The notes under the pieces: model-generated | Told to the model about the DNA's origin: nothing | The model's input: only the letters and a program-made list of their open reading frames with translations | Database searches by the model: none | Shown: positions 2,284 through 7,807 of the stretch, in pieces | Layout of the letters: every line of letters begins with the position of its first letter | Numbering within the stretch: the first letter of the stretch is position 1 | Source of the DNA: Pseudomonas sp. B21-048 | GTDB taxonomy: Bacteria > Pseudomonadota > Gammaproteobacteria > Pseudomonadales > Pseudomonadaceae | Assembly (NCBI RefSeq): GCF_024748615.1 | Contig: NZ_CP087168.1 | Location: 4,402,001-4,466,000, forward strand | Direction: 5' to 3' | Length of the DNA stretch: 64,000 nucleotides | Translations under genes and position numbers: made by a program

Positions 2284-2319
2284 ATCCCACAGTCGTGCCC
2301 GGCGCGACTGTGGGATTTT
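2284..2319 (+). terminator. Hairpin terminator after metG
   Basis: ATCCCACAGTCG and CGACTGTGGGAT form a 12-bp stem, followed by a short T stretch (TTTTC), 18 bases after the metG stop. It plausibly ends metG transcription; the T tract is short. Confidence 0.65.
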
Positions 2320-2395: not shown

Positions 2396-2965
2396 ATGAC
2401 CGAACTGCTTCTTACGCTTATCAGCGCTACCCTGATCAACAACCTCGTGTTGCACTGGCCGCTGGGCGTAGATCCGGTGCTGGGCAGCGAGCGGCCCCAG
2501 GTCCACGCGCTGGGCCTCGCGACGACGTGCCTGATGCTGATCGTCGGCACACTCGGCTATGCGCTCTATCACTGGCTACTGGTGCCATTGGGGCTGACGT
2601 CGCTGCGTCTGTTCGTATTCCTGCCGTTGAGCGTTCTGCTGATCGGCCCTCTGCTGAAGCTGCTTTCACAGTTATTGGCGAAGCTGTCATTCGATGGCCT
2701 CTGGCCCCTGCTGCTGGGGAATGCCGGGGTGCTTGGGCTGACGTTGCTCAACGCTCAAGACGACAAGGGAATTTTCCACGCCACAGCCCTGAGCCTTGGC
2801 GCCGGGCTGGGTTTCTGGCTGGTGCTGAGTCTGTTCAGCGACTTGCGCCAGCGCACACTCGATAACGATATCCCCCTGCCCTTTCGTGGCCTGCCGATCG
2901 AATTGATCGGCGCCGGATTGATCGCGGTGGTTTTTCTCGGATTCAGCGGGCTGATCAAAACATGA
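2396..2965 (+). CDS. rnfA: Rnf/Rsx electron transport complex subunit A
   Basis: Integral membrane subunit of the Rnf (Rsx) complex, which moves electrons between NADH and ferredoxin-type carriers and in enteric bacteria keeps SoxR reduced. The 189-residue protein is almost entirely hydrophobic, with about six membrane segments and the family's [14 protein letters not shown] first helix. The ATG at 2396 ([16 protein letters not shown]) is chosen over the in-frame start 33 bases upstream because homologues begin there. Its stop overlaps the rnfB start by 4 bases, so the two are translationally coupled. Confidence 0.9.
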
Positions 2966-3969
2966 GTCTGATTCAACGCATCGACGCCCTCTTGCCCCAG
3001 ACCCAATGCGGCAAGTGTGGCCATCCCGGATGCAAACCCTACGCCGAAGGCATCGCCAGCGGCGAGCCGATCAACAAGTGCCCGCCGGGCGGCAGCGAAA
3101 CCATCGCGGCCCTGGCCGACCTGCTGAAAGTGCCAGTACTGGAACTGGACGTCAGTCGCGGTTCGGCACCGGCACAGATCGCTTACATCCGCGAAGCCGA
3201 ATGCATCGGCTGCACCAAGTGCATTCAAGCCTGCCCGGTCGACGCCATTGTCGGCGCGGCGAAATTCATGCACACGGTCATCGTCGACGAATGCACCGGA
3301 TGCGACCTCTGCGTGGCGCCCTGCCCGGTGGATTGCATCGAGATGCATCCGTTACCGCTGGCCACGGTGTTGCCGATTGTCGGCGGGCTGGCATTCAACC
3401 AGGAGGAGCAACAGGCCCGGGCCGCCAAGCGCAATCACGCGCGACGCCGTTTCGAACAGCGCAATGCCCGTTTGCAGCGCGAAGAAGAACAGAAACTCGC
3501 CGAACGCCAGGCCCGTGCCCAACGCGCCGAGCAGCCCAGCGAAGTGACGCTCGACCCGGTTCAGGCCGCACTCGAGCGCGTCCGCGCACAGAAAGCCGCC
3601 AATGCCGATGCGGCACTGAAAAAGGCCAAGGTCGATCTGGCGATGAGTCGGGCGCAATTGAACAAATCGCTGAAAGCTTTCGGGCATCCGCCAACCTTCG
3701 AACAGCAATCGCAATTGATCGTGCTGCAACAGCAATTCGAAGCCGCCGAACAGGCGCTGGCGCAACTGGAAAGCAACGCACCTGTGCTGCCTGCGCCTCC
3801 TGTTCCGGCCAAAGATGCCGAGCTGAAACGGGCGAAGATCCAGTTGGCCATGCGTCGTGCCGAACTCAAGAAAGCTCAAACAAACGAAGCGCCGGCCGAA
3901 CAGATCGAAGTGTTGCAACGTGCGCTCAGCGAAGCCGAGCGTCAGGTGGAGGCTTATGCTGCCCCTTGA
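2962..3969 (+). CDS. rnfB: Rnf/Rsx ferredoxin subunit B, without N-terminal anchor and with a long C-terminal tail
   Basis: Iron-sulfur subunit of the Rnf complex. Residues 12-45 carry the CGKCGHPGC cluster motif and a further Cys (INKCPPGG). Two [4Fe-4S] ferredoxin motifs follow, [12 protein letters not shown] near residue 79 and [12 protein letters not shown] near residue 109. Usual RnfB proteins open with a membrane helix of about 30 residues; here the protein starts directly at [14 protein letters not shown]. Residues about 150-335 are a charged Ala/Lys/Gln/Glu-rich tail with two related units ([17 protein letters not shown] and [17 protein letters not shown]). The segment [16 protein letters not shown] resembles the C-terminal tail of RnfC, and rnfC itself is absent here. 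The rnfD start lies within its last codons. Confidence 0.9.
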
Positions 3970-4948
3970 ATCGGTGGACGAACGCCTTCAGCAGGCCATG
4001 AAGCTGGTATTGCTGGCCACTGTGCCGGGAGTGCTGGTGTTGTTCTGGCTGTACGGCTGGGGCGTATTGATCAACCTGATTCTGGCGGCGGCCACCGCTC
4101 TTGCCGTTGAAGCGGTGGTATTGCAGCTGCGCAAGCAACCTGTAAAACCGACGTTGAGCGATGGCAGCGCCCTCGTCAGTGCAACCCTGTTGGCACTGGC
4201 CTTGCCGCCTTATTGCCCGTGGTGGCTGACAGTCAGTGCTGCGGCGTTCGGACTGTTTTTCGGCAAGCACTTGTATGGCGGCGTCGGTAAAAATCCGTTC
4301 AATCCGGCGATGCTCGGTTTCGCGCTGGTCCTGGTGATGTTTCCCCAGCAAATGACCCATTGGCCGTCATCCCATGGCATGGATTTGTTCGCCGGGCTGC
4401 AACAGGTGTTCGGCTTCAGCGTCGGCCAGGCACCCGACGCATGGGCCCAGGCCACGGCGCTGGACAGTCTGCGAATCAACAAAAGCCTGACCATGGAAGA
4501 ACTGTTCGCCGGCCATCCGGCATTCGGCCGTTTTGGCGGTCGAGGCGTGGAATGGGTCAACCTGGCGTTTCTGGCCGGCGGTGCGTTTCTGCTGCAGCGG
4601 CGGGTATTCAGCTGGCATGCGCCGGTCGGCATGCTCGCCAGCCTGTTCAGCATCAGCCTGTTGTGCTGGAACGGCACGGGCTCCGATTCAAATGGCTCGC
4701 CATTGTTTCATCTGCTTACCGGCGCGAGCATGCTCGGTGCTTTCTTCATCGTGACGGAACCGATATCCGGCGCGAAAAGCCCCATTGCCCGATTACTGTT
4801 CGGCGCAGGCGTGGGGTTACTGACATACCTGATTCGGACGTGGGGCGGGTATCCGGACGGGCTGGCCTTTGCGGTTTTGCTGATGAACCTCTGTGTACCG
4901 GCGCTGGAGCGGTTTGCCGCGTCCAGACAGGAGCAAGCAGCCCCATGA
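3956..4948 (+). CDS. rnfD: Rnf/Rsx electron transport complex subunit D
   Basis: Membrane flavoprotein subunit of Rnf, 330 residues, with about eight to ten hydrophobic helices and the conserved [16 protein letters not shown] segment. The Dxx-x-QAT segment DAWAQATAL contains Thr167, which corresponds to the covalently flavinylated threonine of enteric RsxD. The ATG at 3956 overlaps the end of rnfB by 14 bases; an open frame continues upstream but that part has rnfB-shadow composition. The 3' end overlaps rnfG by 4 bases. Confidence 0.93.
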
Positions 4949-5556
4949 ACCGAGCGATGAGCGTTGTGATCCTGGTAGGGCTGGCAGGCTTGGGGATGGG
5001 CACGACTTACTTCGTGCAGCACACCAGTGCCGCGCGCATTGCCGCCGAACAACGTTTGATCGACAGCCATCAGTTACTGGATCTGCTACCGCCCGACAGC
5101 TACGACAATCAGCCACTGGAACACCCCCTCAGCCTCGAAAGCACTCGCCTGGCCAACAGCACGCTACTGGGTGGCTACCTGGCGTCCAAGGCCGGCAAAC
5201 CGAGCGCCGTATTGATGCGCAGTCAGACACTGGGCTACGCCGGCGCCATTGAGTTGCTGATCGCCATCGACCCCCAAGGCAAGCTAGTGGGGGTCAAAAC
5301 CCTCAAGCAATCGGAAACCCCGGGGCTGGGCGGCAAGCTCGCCGACTGGCCCAATGCCTGGCTTCAGGTGTTTACCGGCAAGTCGCTAATCGACCCCGAT
5401 GACAATGGCTGGGCCTTGAAAAAGGACCAAGGGCAATTCGATCAGATCGTGGGCGCGACCATCACCTCAAGAGCGGTGATCAATGCCACCCATGACGCGC
5501 TGCGCTACTTCGATGAACACCGGCAACAGCTGATCGGGAGCAGCGCTCATGAATAA
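4945..5556 (+). CDS. rnfG: Rnf/Rsx electron transport complex subunit G
   Basis: Periplasm-facing flavoprotein subunit anchored by one N-terminal helix (residues about 5-22). The 203-residue protein ends with the FMN-attachment region DQIVGATITSRAV, in which a threonine is modified by ApbE in characterised relatives. The ATG at 4945 overlaps the rnfD stop by 4 bases; a much longer open frame upstream is a shadow of rnfD. It overlaps rnfE by 8 bases. Confidence 0.93.
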   Translation: MNRAMSVVILVGLAGLGMGTTYFVQHTSAARIAAEQRLIDSHQLLDLLPPDSYDNQPLEHPLSLESTRLANSTLLGGYLASKAGKPSAVLMRSQTLGYAGAIELLIAIDPQGKLVGVKTLKQSETPGLGGKLADWPNAWLQVFTGKSLIDPDDNGWALKKDQGQFDQIVGATITSRAVINATHDALRYFDEHRQQLIGSSAHE

Positions 5557-6139
5557 GTCATCGACCCTGCAGAACTCGCTGATGCTGACGCCGTTGATCG
5601 GCGTCACTGATTCATTGATAACGGCCCTGGGCCTGTGGCTGATGTTTACTCTGGTACTCAGTGCTTACGGTGTGAGCATGGGCGTCTTGCGCTCGCGAAT
5701 GACTCCGGCAACACATTTGCTCGCCTGCCTCTTGCTGGCCGCCACGCTGACCAGTTGCGCGGAATTTTCCATGCAAGCCTGGTCGCTTCAATGGCACCAG
5801 CATCTGAGTTTCTACGCAGGATTGATCGCCCTGCAATGCGTTGTGCTGGAACACAACGGTTTTTTCCAGACCCCACGGCGTGATCGACTGCGCCTGTGTA
5901 GCCTGTTCGGCGCCTTGATGGTGGGCTTGGGGCTGCTGCGCGAGTTCATCGGCAACGGGACACTCGCTAGCCATTTGTCCTGGATGGCCGGTGCCACGCA
6001 AGCGGACTGGCAAGGCTGGACGCTGATCGCCGACGGTGGCCTGCATCTGGCCACACTGGCCCCTGGCGGGTTTATTCTGTTCGGACTGCTGATCGCCGCC
6101 TATCAAGCCTGGACCCACCGTCCGGCGGCCCCACATTGA
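5549..6139 (+). CDS. rnfE: Rnf/Rsx electron transport complex subunit E
   Basis: Integral membrane partner of RnfA. The 196-residue protein begins NSLMLTPLIGVTDSLITALG, close to the family's opening helix, and has about six hydrophobic segments. It overlaps rnfG by 8 bases and is followed 24 bases later by nth, the usual Pseudomonas arrangement. The sequence is rather divergent from enteric RsxE, in line with the altered cluster. Confidence 0.88.
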   Translation: MNKSSTLQNSLMLTPLIGVTDSLITALGLWLMFTLVLSAYGVSMGVLRSRMTPATHLLACLLLAATLTSCAEFSMQAWSLQWHQHLSFYAGLIALQCVVLEHNGFFQTPRRDRLRLCSLFGALMVGLGLLREFIGNGTLASHLSWMAGATQADWQGWTLIADGGLHLATLAPGGFILFGLLIAAYQAWTHRPAAPH

Positions 6140-6163: not shown

Positions 6164-6802
6164 ATGAATGCCGCAAAACGTCTTGAAATTTTCCGCAGGT
6201 TTCACGAAGACAATCCTGAGCCGAAGACCGAACTGGCCTATTCCTCACCGTTCGAATTGCTGATCGCCGTGATTCTCTCGGCGCAGTCGACCGATGTCGG
6301 CGTGAACAAGGCCACCGCCAAACTGTTCCCGGTGGCCAATACGCCAGCGGCGATCCATGCCTTGGGCGTCGAAGGGCTGTCGGAGTACATCAAGACCATC
6401 GGCCTGTTCAACAGCAAAGCGAAAAACGTGATCGAAACCTGTCGCTTGCTGGTGGAGCGTCATGGAGGTGAAGTGCCGCAGACCCGCGAGGCACTGGAAG
6501 CATTGCCCGGCGTCGGTCGCAAGACCGCCAACGTGGTGCTCAATACCGCCTTTCGTCAGCTGACCATGGCTGTAGACACCCACATTTTCCGGGTCAGCAA
6601 CCGTACCGGCATTGCTCCGGGCAAGAACGTGGTCGAGGTGGAGCAGAAACTGATGAAATTCGTGCCGAAGGAATATCTGCTCGATGCCCATCACTGGCTG
6701 ATTCTCCATGGGCGCTACGTTTGCCTGGCCCGCAAGCCGCGTTGTGGCAGTTGCCGGATAGAGGATTTGTGCGAATACAAGCAAAAGACTTCGGACGATT
6801 GA
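6164..6802 (+). CDS. nth: Endonuclease III
   Basis: DNA glycosylase/AP lyase that removes oxidised pyrimidines. The 212-residue protein has the helix-hairpin-helix LPGVGRKTANVVLN around residues 113-126 with the catalytic Lys in GRKTA, the catalytic Asp in AVDTHIFRVSNR, and the C-terminal [4Fe-4S] cluster (C-x6-C-x2-C-x5-C: CLARKPRCGSCRIEDLC). The length is normal. It is the last gene of the rnf cluster, as is common in gammaproteobacteria. Confidence 0.97.
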   Translation: MNAAKRLEIFRRFHEDNPEPKTELAYSSPFELLIAVILSAQSTDVGVNKATAKLFPVANTPAAIHALGVEGLSEYIKTIGLFNSKAKNVIETCRLLVERHGGEVPQTREALEALPGVGRKTANVVLNTAFRQLTMAVDTHIFRVSNRTGIAPGKNVVEVEQKLMKFVPKEYLLDAHHWLILHGRYVCLARKPRCGSCRIEDLCEYKQKTSDD

Positions 6803-6909
6803 GGCGCTATTGATTTTTTTGATTGATCGATTGAAAAAATCTTTTTTACCCGCCGGTAAATTGTCGATATAAGGAGCGCCAAAGGCAGCCTTAGCCTGGA
6901 GTTAACCTT

Positions 6910-7089
6910 ATGAGTACTGGCAAAGAGCAATTGGACGTAGAAGACGACTTCACCCCCGTTGAGGCCGATGACGCAGAGCCGGTAGTGGAAGTGGCAAAGA
7001 CCAACCTGAGCAAACGCCGTACCATCGACAATCTGCTGGAGGAGCGCCGACTGCAGAAGCAACTGGCCGATTACGATTTTGATTTATGA
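6910..7089 (+). CDS. Small acidic protein, PA3496 family
   Basis: Fifty-nine codons from ATG (6910) to TGA (7089), encoding MSTGKEQLDVEDDF through RLQKQLADYDFDL. The N-terminal half is acidic and the C-terminal half is a basic amphipathic helix (KTNLSKRRTIDNLLEERRL). It lies after nth, where PA3496 lies in P. aeruginosa; that family has been annotated as a putative envelope-integrity protein. No membrane segment or signal peptide is visible. An upstream AT-rich stretch and a strong terminator frame it as its own unit. Confidence 0.8.
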   Translation: MSTGKEQLDVEDDFTPVEADDAEPVVEVAKTNLSKRRTIDNLLEERRLQKQLADYDFDL

Positions 7090-7094
7090 CACTT

Positions 7095-7121
7095 AAAAGC
7101 CTCCCGAAACGGAGGCTTTTT
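7095..7121 (+). terminator. Rho-independent terminator after the PA3496-type gene
   Basis: AAAAGCCTCC and GGAGGCTTTT form a 10-bp stem around CGAAAC, with a T run. Read in reverse it also has T residues, so it could serve the convergent response regulator gene too. Confidence 0.9.
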
Positions 7122-7180
7122 ACTAAGTGCCGCCCCCTGATAAGCGCCCGCTCATCGCGCCTCGTCAAACGCTGGCAGCT

Positions 7181-7807
7181 TTATACCAGGCCATTGCGTT
7201 GAGCCAATTCGATCAGGTCCACCAGTGAACGAGCATTGAGCTTTAGCAGCAAACGCGTTTTGTAAGTACTGACGGTTTTATTGCTAAGGAACATTCCATC
7301 GGCGATCTCCTTGTTTGTCTTTCCTCGGGCCAACTGCTGCAGGACCATCATTTCCCGTCCCGACAAACGATCCACCATGTCGGCTTCACTGGCATTCCCA
7401 AGACTGGAACGCACGGTATGCAGCGCCTGATTAGGAAAGTAACTGTAGCCTGACAGCACGGCCTTTATTGCACTGAGTAATTCAGTGAGATCCTGTTGTT
7501 TACAGACATATCCGGCGGCGCCCGTTTGCATACAACGCATGGAAAAATGCCCTGGCGCCTGAGAGGTCAATATCAGTACTTTAAGAGGCATCGCGGTCGA
7601 TGTCAGGCGCGCAATGACTTCCAGCCCGTCCAGTTTCGGTATCCCAATATCCAGTATGACAATATCCGGCATTAGTTCACGAGCAAGTTGCAATGCATCC
7701 ACACCATTATCTGTTTCTGCAATGACTTCGTAGCCATGACGCTCCATTAGCATACGCACCGCAAGACGAATGACGGGGTGATCATCCACGATCAGCACTT
7801 TATTCAT
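7181..7807 (-). CDS. NarL/FixJ-family response regulator
   Basis: Two-component response regulator of 208 residues. An N-terminal receiver has the acidic pair (VDDH) at residues 7-9, the phosphoacceptor Asp in IVILDIGIPKLDG (about residue 54) and the conserved Lys in YVCKQQ. A C-terminal LuxR-type helix-turn-helix (LSGREMMVLQQLARGKTNKEIA) follows. It resembles the RocA/BvgA/EvgA branch. The start at 7807 (MNKVLIVDD) has GGA at a good distance upstream and is preferred to one 12 bases further out. No cognate kinase is adjacent, so its signal cannot be named. It borders an AT-rich segment. Confidence 0.85.
   Translation of the reverse strand: MNKVLIVDDHPVIRLAVRMLMERHGYEVIAETDNGVDALQLARELMPDIVILDIGIPKLDGLEVIARLTSTAMPLKVLILTSQAPGHFSMRCMQTGAAGYVCKQQDLTELLSAIKAVLSGYSYFPNQALHTVRSSLGNASEADMVDRLSGREMMVLQQLARGKTNKEIADGMFLSNKTVSTYKTRLLLKLNARSLVDLIELAQRNGLV

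Follow-up and report, generated by a model that had tools for sequence, protein, structure and literature searches.

An rnfC-less Rnf cluster common in Pseudomonas, with an RnfC-like tail on RnfB and an apparently dismantled [2Fe-2S] site

Introduction

In the canonical route of the Rnf complex electrons pass from RnfB to a [2Fe-2S] cluster held by RnfA and RnfE, and then through the flavin mononucleotide (FMN) of RnfG and the FMN and riboflavin of RnfD to RnfC and finally to NAD+. RnfA and RnfE together provide four inner half-helices with one cysteine each for the mid-membrane cluster, which hands the electron from RnfB on to RnfG, and the RnfC of A. vinelandii has a long C-terminal helix that contacts RnfB and RnfH and whose function is not understood (PMC12174285). 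Flow through Rnf has been drawn as a semicircle with two membrane crossings, as opposed to smaller NQR/RNF-like systems in which electrons make one crossing, outward (Meheust 2021, PMC8238504). Here we describe an rnf cluster without rnfC in a stretch of 64,000 nucleotides from Pseudomonas sp. B21-048 (NZ_CP087168.1, positions 4,402,001 to 4,466,000), hereafter the window, whose own coordinates are used throughout. Three of the four cluster cysteines are missing from this complex, and its RnfB carries a tail related to RnfC. No title or abstract start among the matches listed by our literature search, whose coverage left out most subscription papers, describes the rnfABDGE layout or the missing cysteines.

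Results

An rnf operon without rnfC

Five genes follow one another on the forward (+) strand: rnfA (2396..2965, 189 residues), encoding a six-helix membrane subunit; rnfB (2962..3969, 335 residues); rnfD (3956..4948), for the membrane flavin subunit; rnfG (4945..5556), for the periplasmic FMN subunit with its FMN_bind domain (PF04205); and rnfE (5549..6139, 196 residues), for a second six-helix membrane subunit. Gene starts were assigned by inspection as the first suitable ATG. NCBIfam models recognise all five, RnfB, RnfD and RnfG above the curated cut-offs (TIGR01944, 215 bits; TIGR01946, 358 bits; TIGR01947, 151 bits) but RnfA and RnfE far below them (TIGR01943, 110.8 bits for a cut-off of 229.3; TIGR01948, 73.2 bits for a cut-off of 213.4), which was the first sign of an unusual membrane pair. 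The A/B, B/D, D/G and G/E junctions overlap by 4, 14, 4 and 8 bases, which leaves no room for an rnfC between the genes; these coordinates bear out the overlapping A-B-D-G-E order given in a first-pass annotation of this DNA.

That annotation had also called for a search of the whole genome for RnfC. The 5.71 Mb genome is in a single contig (99.95% complete), and searching all of it with TIGR01945 gave nothing above the cut-off for RnfC. The FMN domain PF01512 occurs in two frames only: one of 568 residues, which we take to be the beta subunit of a formate dehydrogenase, and one of 465 residues, presumably NuoF, because a 183-residue frame matching the ferredoxin part of the rnfC model lies 4.7 kb downstream of it. 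A PF02508 search (RnfA/RnfE/NqrD/NqrE) of the genome returned two proteins, both in the rnf operon and with RsxA and RsxE as best models; the genome thus has neither a second RnfA/RnfE pair nor an NqrD/NqrE pair, and no search aimed at NqrA or NqrF was made.

For comparison, rnf loci of the genus were read for gene content, giving 14 complete clusters, 118 with the gene set of the window (ABDGE; 111 distinct, the window included), 22 without rnfB and rnfC (ADGE), 20 with rnfB alone and 6 of other rnf types. Loci were chosen from family-search listings and a search of titled genomes and are not an even sample, most of the ABDGE loci having been picked for a good match to the RnfD of the window (80 from one search). 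An assembly error, raised at first as a possible source of the gene order, is unlikely because the same set recurs in all 118 loci, two of which (L106 and L122) come from records titled complete genome. The contig stops inside rnfE in one ABDGE locus (L164), and rnfG is split in another (L113).

RnfA and RnfE lack three of the four cluster cysteines

We aligned RnfA to chain A of 8ahx, 9eri and 7zc6, and RnfE to chain E of 8ahx (8ahx_E). Asp26 of RnfA (2471..2473) stands in place of the first [2Fe-2S] cysteine and Ala110 (2723..2725) in place of the second, and Thr14 of RnfE (5588..5590) replaces the first cysteine of that subunit, leaving Cys97 of RnfE (5837..5839) as the sole survivor. Position 26 of RnfA is Cys in 14/14 complete clusters and in 0/111 distinct ABDGE loci (106 Asp, 2 Ala, 1 Glu, 1 Asn and 1 gap). 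Position 110, again Cys in every complete cluster (14/14), is Ala in 102/111 ABDGE and 17/22 ADGE loci and Cys in neither group, and position 14 of RnfE, Cys in 14/14 complete clusters, is A, T, V, S, L, M or P in 111/111 ABDGE loci. Taking all loci with RnfD and without rnfC, there is no Cys at either RnfA ligand position in the 133 distinct ones, nor at position 14 of RnfE in the 132 read.

The ADGE loci follow the same pattern. None of their 22 RnfA rows has Cys at a ligand position, position 26 being a gap in 20 of them; the row of L184, in which rnfA is broken across frames, is unreliable. RnfE could be aligned in 21 of the 22, with Cys97 in 21/21 and no Cys at position 14; L179 has no rnfE match, but a 197-residue frame lies in the expected place. 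Cys97 is also present in 14/14 complete clusters, in 110/111 ABDGE loci (L164 ends earlier), which with the ADGE rows makes 131/131 of the distinct rnfC-less rows that cover it, and in two further loci with the layout of the window (L248 and L249). Cys70 of RnfE (5756..5758), which is not a ligand, is often retained too (99/111 ABDGE, 21/21 ADGE and 14/14 complete), and is absent from L248 and L249. In eight ADGE loci (L044, L167-L169, L171 and L173-L175) a shortened loop of RnfA carries a cysteine in the motif VNHLC.

An order-wide search of 390 genomes with the aberrant RnfA alignment gave scores above 170 bits in only five genomes, all Pseudomonas; in 25/25 loci then read from other families both RnfA cysteines are present and rnfC adjoins, and three clusters from another genus of the same family are all complete, with their cysteines retained. 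Predicted structures of RnfA (pLDDT, the predicted local distance difference test, of 80, falling below 50 in the loop around Asp26; best matches to RnfA/NqrE chains) and of RnfE (pLDDT 75; best PDB match 8ahx_E, E 0.003) support the fold only.

RnfB has lost its anchor and carries an RnfC-derived tail

RnfB of the window has 15 residues ahead of its first cysteine, compared with 48, including a strongly hydrophobic segment, in 14/14 complete clusters. The stretch measures 15-18 residues across the 111 ABDGE loci, below the length of a membrane helix, so the N-terminal helix is indeed missing, as had been proposed for the window. The Fe-S part (3007..3324) holds 12 cysteines, predicted to bind one cluster in residues 16-40 and two in residues 81-121, and the 12-Cys pattern is found in 111/111 ABDGE loci and in the 20/20 orphan RnfB proteins.

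To the rear of this part lies a tail (3406..3966) that scores 94.4 bits (E 6.6e-28) against a hidden Markov model of the RnfC tail. For this profile we used the part of RnfC behind its last Fe-S motif, 321-472 residues long, in 13 of the complete Pseudomonas clusters; the RnfC of the fourteenth (L053) was not parsed. Every ABDGE tail (118/118, 48.3-250.8 bits) and every tail of RnfB alone (20/20, 45.9-174.3 bits) matches it, while 414 shuffled tails reach at most 10.7 bits and the 353 proteins listed by hmmsearch out of 654 controls at most 4.2. The RnfB tail of the window is identical to the RnfC tail of L050 in 75/197 alignment columns. The top score (251 bits) belongs to L031, whose tail and that of an RnfC align over their full lengths (140/386 columns identical, gaps included), and the tails of L248 and L249 score 207.0 and 206.5 bits. 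Judged from these alignments, the tail of the Pseudomonas RnfB is homologous to the C-terminus of RnfC. The resemblance noticed in the first-pass annotation was thus real, as were the two repeats described there, although the tail is longer than the roughly 185 residues stated, at about 205 after the last Fe-S motif. A deletion fusing rnfB to the 3' end of rnfC, suggested there as a possible origin, fits this homology: the present RnfB would result if rnfB, cut after its ferredoxin part, had been joined to what lies behind the corresponding part of rnfC.

We considered whether orphan RnfB proteins of other bacteria represent the same fusion and dropped the idea: of 28 class-level loci with a parsable tail, 10 have RnfB and neither rnfA nor rnfC in the roughly 3.5 kb read, and the tails of these 10 (74-116 residues) score at most 6.4 bits against the Pseudomonas RnfC-tail profile, with shuffles at up to 5.1, so that homology is not shown. 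A look-alike motif seen by eye in such tails is a lead only. Eight class-level loci from other families (L187, L190, L192-L194, L196, L199 and L200) have an RnfB without rnfA or rnfC, with a tail of 74-116 residues and with nth adjoining.

The flavin sites are retained

The covalent FMN site of RnfD is predicted, from its motif, at Thr167 (4454..4456), where QATAL aligns with MTGATAL of A. vinelandii RnfD, and that of RnfG at Thr172 in GATIT (5458..5460); the two proteins were aligned to chains D and G of 8ahx. An earlier candidate, the loss of the RnfD threonine (Ser in LTGASML), was withdrawn, since the A. vinelandii alignment places the motif at QATAL, with the Thr kept. Counted by locus, with seven ABDGE loci being duplicates, the RnfD threonine is kept in 117/118 ABDGE (one Ser), 22/22 ADGE and 14/14 complete loci, and the RnfG threonine in 118/118 ABDGE and 14/14 complete loci, with 20 Thr and 2 Ser in the 22 ADGE loci.

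The flavin transferase ApbE occurs in 216/216 genomes with an RnfD match and in 16/82 without one; among rnfC-less genomes the figures are 173/173 and 16/82 (RnfD, any TIGR01946 match with E <=0.001; ApbE, any PF02424 match at 1e-20). These counts are of genomes and not of independent events, and Fisher's p of 3e-51 ignores kinship and is only descriptive because the genomes are related. The apbE gene of the strain lies 2.45 Mb away from rnf. Its genome also encodes, outside the window (G000:C1:3432245-3432505, L217), a 749-residue frame with FMN_bind that we presume to be NosR-like.

The rnfC-less layout is usual in a large Pseudomonas clade

A family search of 298 Pseudomonas genomes found RnfC in 43, RnfB and RnfD without RnfC in 151, RnfD only in 22 and RnfB only in 69 (both groups without RnfC), and none of the three in 13. 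In five of the 151 (G001, G034, G147, G164 and G267) RnfD is matched only weakly, at E 1e-53 to 1e-57. Five of the RnfC-positive genomes (G021, G057, G072, G093 and G103) have a shorter, second RnfC only; G093, when read, showed ABDGE at the metG-nth slot (L031). The survey of gene order that the first-pass annotation had proposed therefore reveals more than a one-strain trait: across a large Pseudomonas clade the rnfC-less layout is the norm, and titled ABDGE genomes include strains of P. fluorescens, P. mandelii, P. frederiksbergensis, P. chlororaphis and P. umsongensis. The ADGE clusters come from 22 genomes (L033, L036, L044 and L167-L185).

On a tree of MetG and Nth from 109 of 174 loci (13 complete, 54 ABDGE, 22 ADGE and 20 RnfB alone; L248 and L249 not placed), complete clusters part from all rnfC-less ones, with support of 1.0 on the complete side. 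L031 is the first branch among the rnfC-less loci, where inner support is low (0.3). ADGE appears in two places and RnfB alone in five groups, with eight changes by parsimony. A single loss of rnfC at the base of the Pseudomonas clade is the simplest reading by parsimony, because the tree separates the complete clusters and because other families and the related genus have complete clusters.

The shorter RnfC (frames of 480-594 residues) gave 11 matches among the 298 genomes. It adjoins an RnfD-type protein in the four loci read (L062, L063, L064 and L066; for instance L063:2722-6866), and in L063 apbE lies beside the pair on the opposite strand. No other Rnf genes were matched in the 9-11 kb read at these four loci, and the pair is possibly a separate RnfC-RnfD flavin system.

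Constraint on the retained genes

We estimated nonsynonymous (dN) and synonymous (dS) rates and their ratio (omega) from pairs with a MetG dS of 0.1-0.5 (60 ABDGE, 60 ADGE, 36 RnfB-alone and 30 complete), excluding L164, L113, L049, L056, L047 and L060, where genes are cut or split or metG is cut or missing. Median omega in ABDGE loci is 0.20 for RnfA, 0.06 for the RnfB core, 0.12 for RnfD, 0.18 for RnfG and 0.27 for RnfE; the membrane genes of ADGE loci give 0.20-0.47. The median is below 0.5 for every gene. Relative to MetG, the dN of the RnfB core is 0.8 in complete clusters and 2.0 in rnfC-less ones. The identical value of 2.0 with and without membrane genes suggests that RnfB has a job of its own.

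Genomic neighbourhood

The operon lies between metG (215-2266) and nth (6164-6802). The rsx operon of E. coli is followed by nth as well. Endonuclease III is named as a terminal operon gene in the reference list of PMC4014512. In all 20 orphan loci of the genus the arrangement is metG-rnfB-nth, and rnfB adjoins nth without rnfA or rnfC in 9/30 class-level loci. Downstream of metG a strong inverted repeat followed by TTTT (2284..2316, +), read from the sequence and not listed by the terminator scan, has similar counterparts in several relatives and may separate metG from the rnf operon, which may therefore have its own promoter; a consensus scan found none.

Discussion

The Rnf complex of the window, like that of many Pseudomonas, is very probably not a ferredoxin:NAD+ oxidoreductase. 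As read from the sequences, RnfC was lost but left its C-terminal tail on RnfB, which lost its anchor as well. The same lineage gave up three of the four cysteines by which RnfA and RnfE hold the [2Fe-2S] cluster, and it kept the flavin sites of both RnfD and RnfG together with the RnfB clusters. The proposal that the variant may take electrons from another donor is unsupported as first put, because it presumes an otherwise conventionally working complex, and three of the four ligands are gone in the rnfC-less loci examined. Our favoured reading, held tentatively, is that an Rnf derivative was re-tooled into a one-way flavin path from RnfD to RnfG, toward the periplasm. The first membrane crossing of the canonical route, through the cluster, and its last step, to the NAD partner, would both be lost. 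With attachment sites still present on both flavin subunits, but no cluster in the first crossing and no NAD partner for the second, the simplest working device left would be an RnfD-RnfG relay. Electrons would run one way from a donor to the riboflavin and FMN of RnfD, the FMN of RnfG and a periplasmic acceptor. The donor, cytosolic or in the membrane, would meet the RnfD riboflavin; it could be soluble RnfB, in the place of RnfC, where RnfB is present, and otherwise quinol, as in NqrB. RnfA and RnfE would stay as a scaffold or gate without a cluster wire, and RnfB would have an additional job of its own.

That the parts occur separately, RnfB alone in 20 loci and RnfADGE in 22, supports this relay. 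In Bacteroides the membrane subunits are needed for a toxin sensitivity that persists in mutants lacking RnfB and RnfC, so the Rnf membrane core can stand alone (PMC12718326). A number of observations weigh on the other side. The existence of RnfADGE means that RnfB is not required as donor. Some loci carry cysteines near, though not at, the lost ligands, so another metal site is possible: the VNHLC cysteine lies eight residues before the lost first RnfA ligand in 8/22 ADGE loci, 6/111 ABDGE loci have Cys at RnfA position 108, two residues before the lost second ligand, and nine loci have a nearby Cys in the first part of RnfE. ApbE of this genome may also serve the NosR-like protein, a second likely substrate. 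Some genes are broken, with rnfG split over several frames in L113 (Pseudomonas sp. TH31; 6549-7599) and rnfA across frames in L184 (4900-5470), breaks that may be sequencing errors. Finally, RnfA and RnfE evolve fast: compared with MetG, their median dN is 0.6 and 2.3 times as high in complete clusters, 7.1 and 14.9 times in ABDGE loci and 20.9 and 23.6 times in ADGE loci. The pair is, by these estimates, under looser yet real constraint, and the rates fit both a changed function and slow decay.

Slow decay, with RnfA, RnfD, RnfG and RnfE a dispensable remnant and only the tailed RnfB of importance, is a serious rival, if an unlikely one. It accounts for the fast evolution of RnfA and RnfE, for the repeated loss of membrane genes that leaves RnfB alone in five separate groups of the tree, and for the two broken genes. 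Against it, the rnfA, rnfB and rnfD frames of the 118 ABDGE loci have at least 182, 276 and 323 residues, the median omega of their membrane genes is 0.12-0.27, the FMN threonines and Cys97 of RnfE are near-invariant, ApbE tracks RnfD, and RnfADGE persists after RnfB has been lost. We find it equally improbable that two independent devices share an old operon and exchange no electrons, one being RnfADGE as a flavin chain fed by quinol and leading to the periplasm, the other RnfB as a soluble ferredoxin that serves an unrelated client. Each does occur without the other (RnfB without RnfD and RnfC in 69/298 genomes, RnfD without RnfB and RnfC in 22/298), the RnfB anchor is lost, and NqrB has a known quinone step at its riboflavin (PMC12174285). 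However, the family search shows both in 151/298 genomes, the loci read having them in a single operon of overlapping genes, and the RnfB tail stems from RnfC, the subunit that receives electrons from RnfD. A role of RnfB as a general ferredoxin also sits badly with P. aeruginosa, where an extra rnfB, of the complete type, failed to relieve the need for fprA and a copy of fdx1 did so (PMC5302815).

The place of rnfB beside nth brings up a more specific client: RnfB could donate electrons or a cluster to Nth (endonuclease III, a [4Fe-4S] enzyme) or to SoxR, and survive there for that reason. We think this very improbable. Endonuclease III has been proposed as a possible part of RNF, in a role called obscure (PMC4014512), and in E. 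coli the reduction of SoxR is ascribed to RsxABCDGE (PMC12174285), but the neighbourhood is weak evidence because the position alone is ancestral, nth following rnfE in complete clusters, and our literature search on RnfB with endonuclease III showed no experiment linking them. Hardly credible, lastly, is a normal Rnf complex that borrows an RnfC or NuoF encoded elsewhere: the 465-residue frame does have the same FMN domain, but across the complete genome no rnfC exceeded the cut-off, and without the [2Fe-2S] ligands the chain should be broken in any case.

Returning to the one-way relay, its fuller form, to which we give rather less credence, is that a two-way redox pump, on losing RnfC, gave rise to two devices that can be separated: a flavin relay to the periplasm, free of NAD(H) and of the cluster, with RnfA and RnfE as a gate with one essential cysteine, and a soluble carrier made of RnfB and the RnfC tail. 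If so, a distinct and widespread redox system of Pseudomonas, in a clade that includes plant and soil strains, would be hidden under Rnf names. Database names such as RnfA and RnfB imply a ferredoxin:NAD+ chemistry that these sequences do not support, and the survey criterion of an RnfB in a flavinylation gene cluster (PMC8238504) could take clusters of this kind for RNF. As a natural experiment, the clade shows which Rnf parts can be lost together, and it makes the role of RnfA and RnfE apart from the [2Fe-2S] cluster testable.

Among known systems, RnfABCDGE of A. vinelandii (Rnf1), A. woodii and C. tetanomorphum shares with the window homologous A, B, D, G and E subunits in the same order save for rnfC, the FMN sites and the Fe-S motifs of RnfB, and the complete Pseudomonas clusters share its metG/nth neighbourhood; the window differs from them in the absence of RnfC, the loss of three of four [2Fe-2S] cysteines and an unanchored RnfB with an RnfC tail. 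RsxABCDGE of E. coli has the same subunit families, but the window lacks RsxC and the [2Fe-2S] site. Na+-NQR offers a parallel in NqrA, which has also lost all redox cofactors, and in NqrB, the RnfD homologue, which meets quinone; unlike it, the genome studied here has as its only PF02508 proteins the two of the rnf operon. The unidirectional flavinylated NQR/RNF-like systems, for which one-way flow has been proposed, likewise have RnfD-type and RnfG-type subunits and no full semicircular path (PMC8238504). Their RnfD, known chiefly from Actinobacteria and candidate phyla, carries a fused NAD-binding domain and does not conserve the FMN threonine (PMC10979944), whereas the RnfD of the window is unfused (PF03116 only, with no PF00175 domain), its threonine is kept, and RnfA and RnfE remain.

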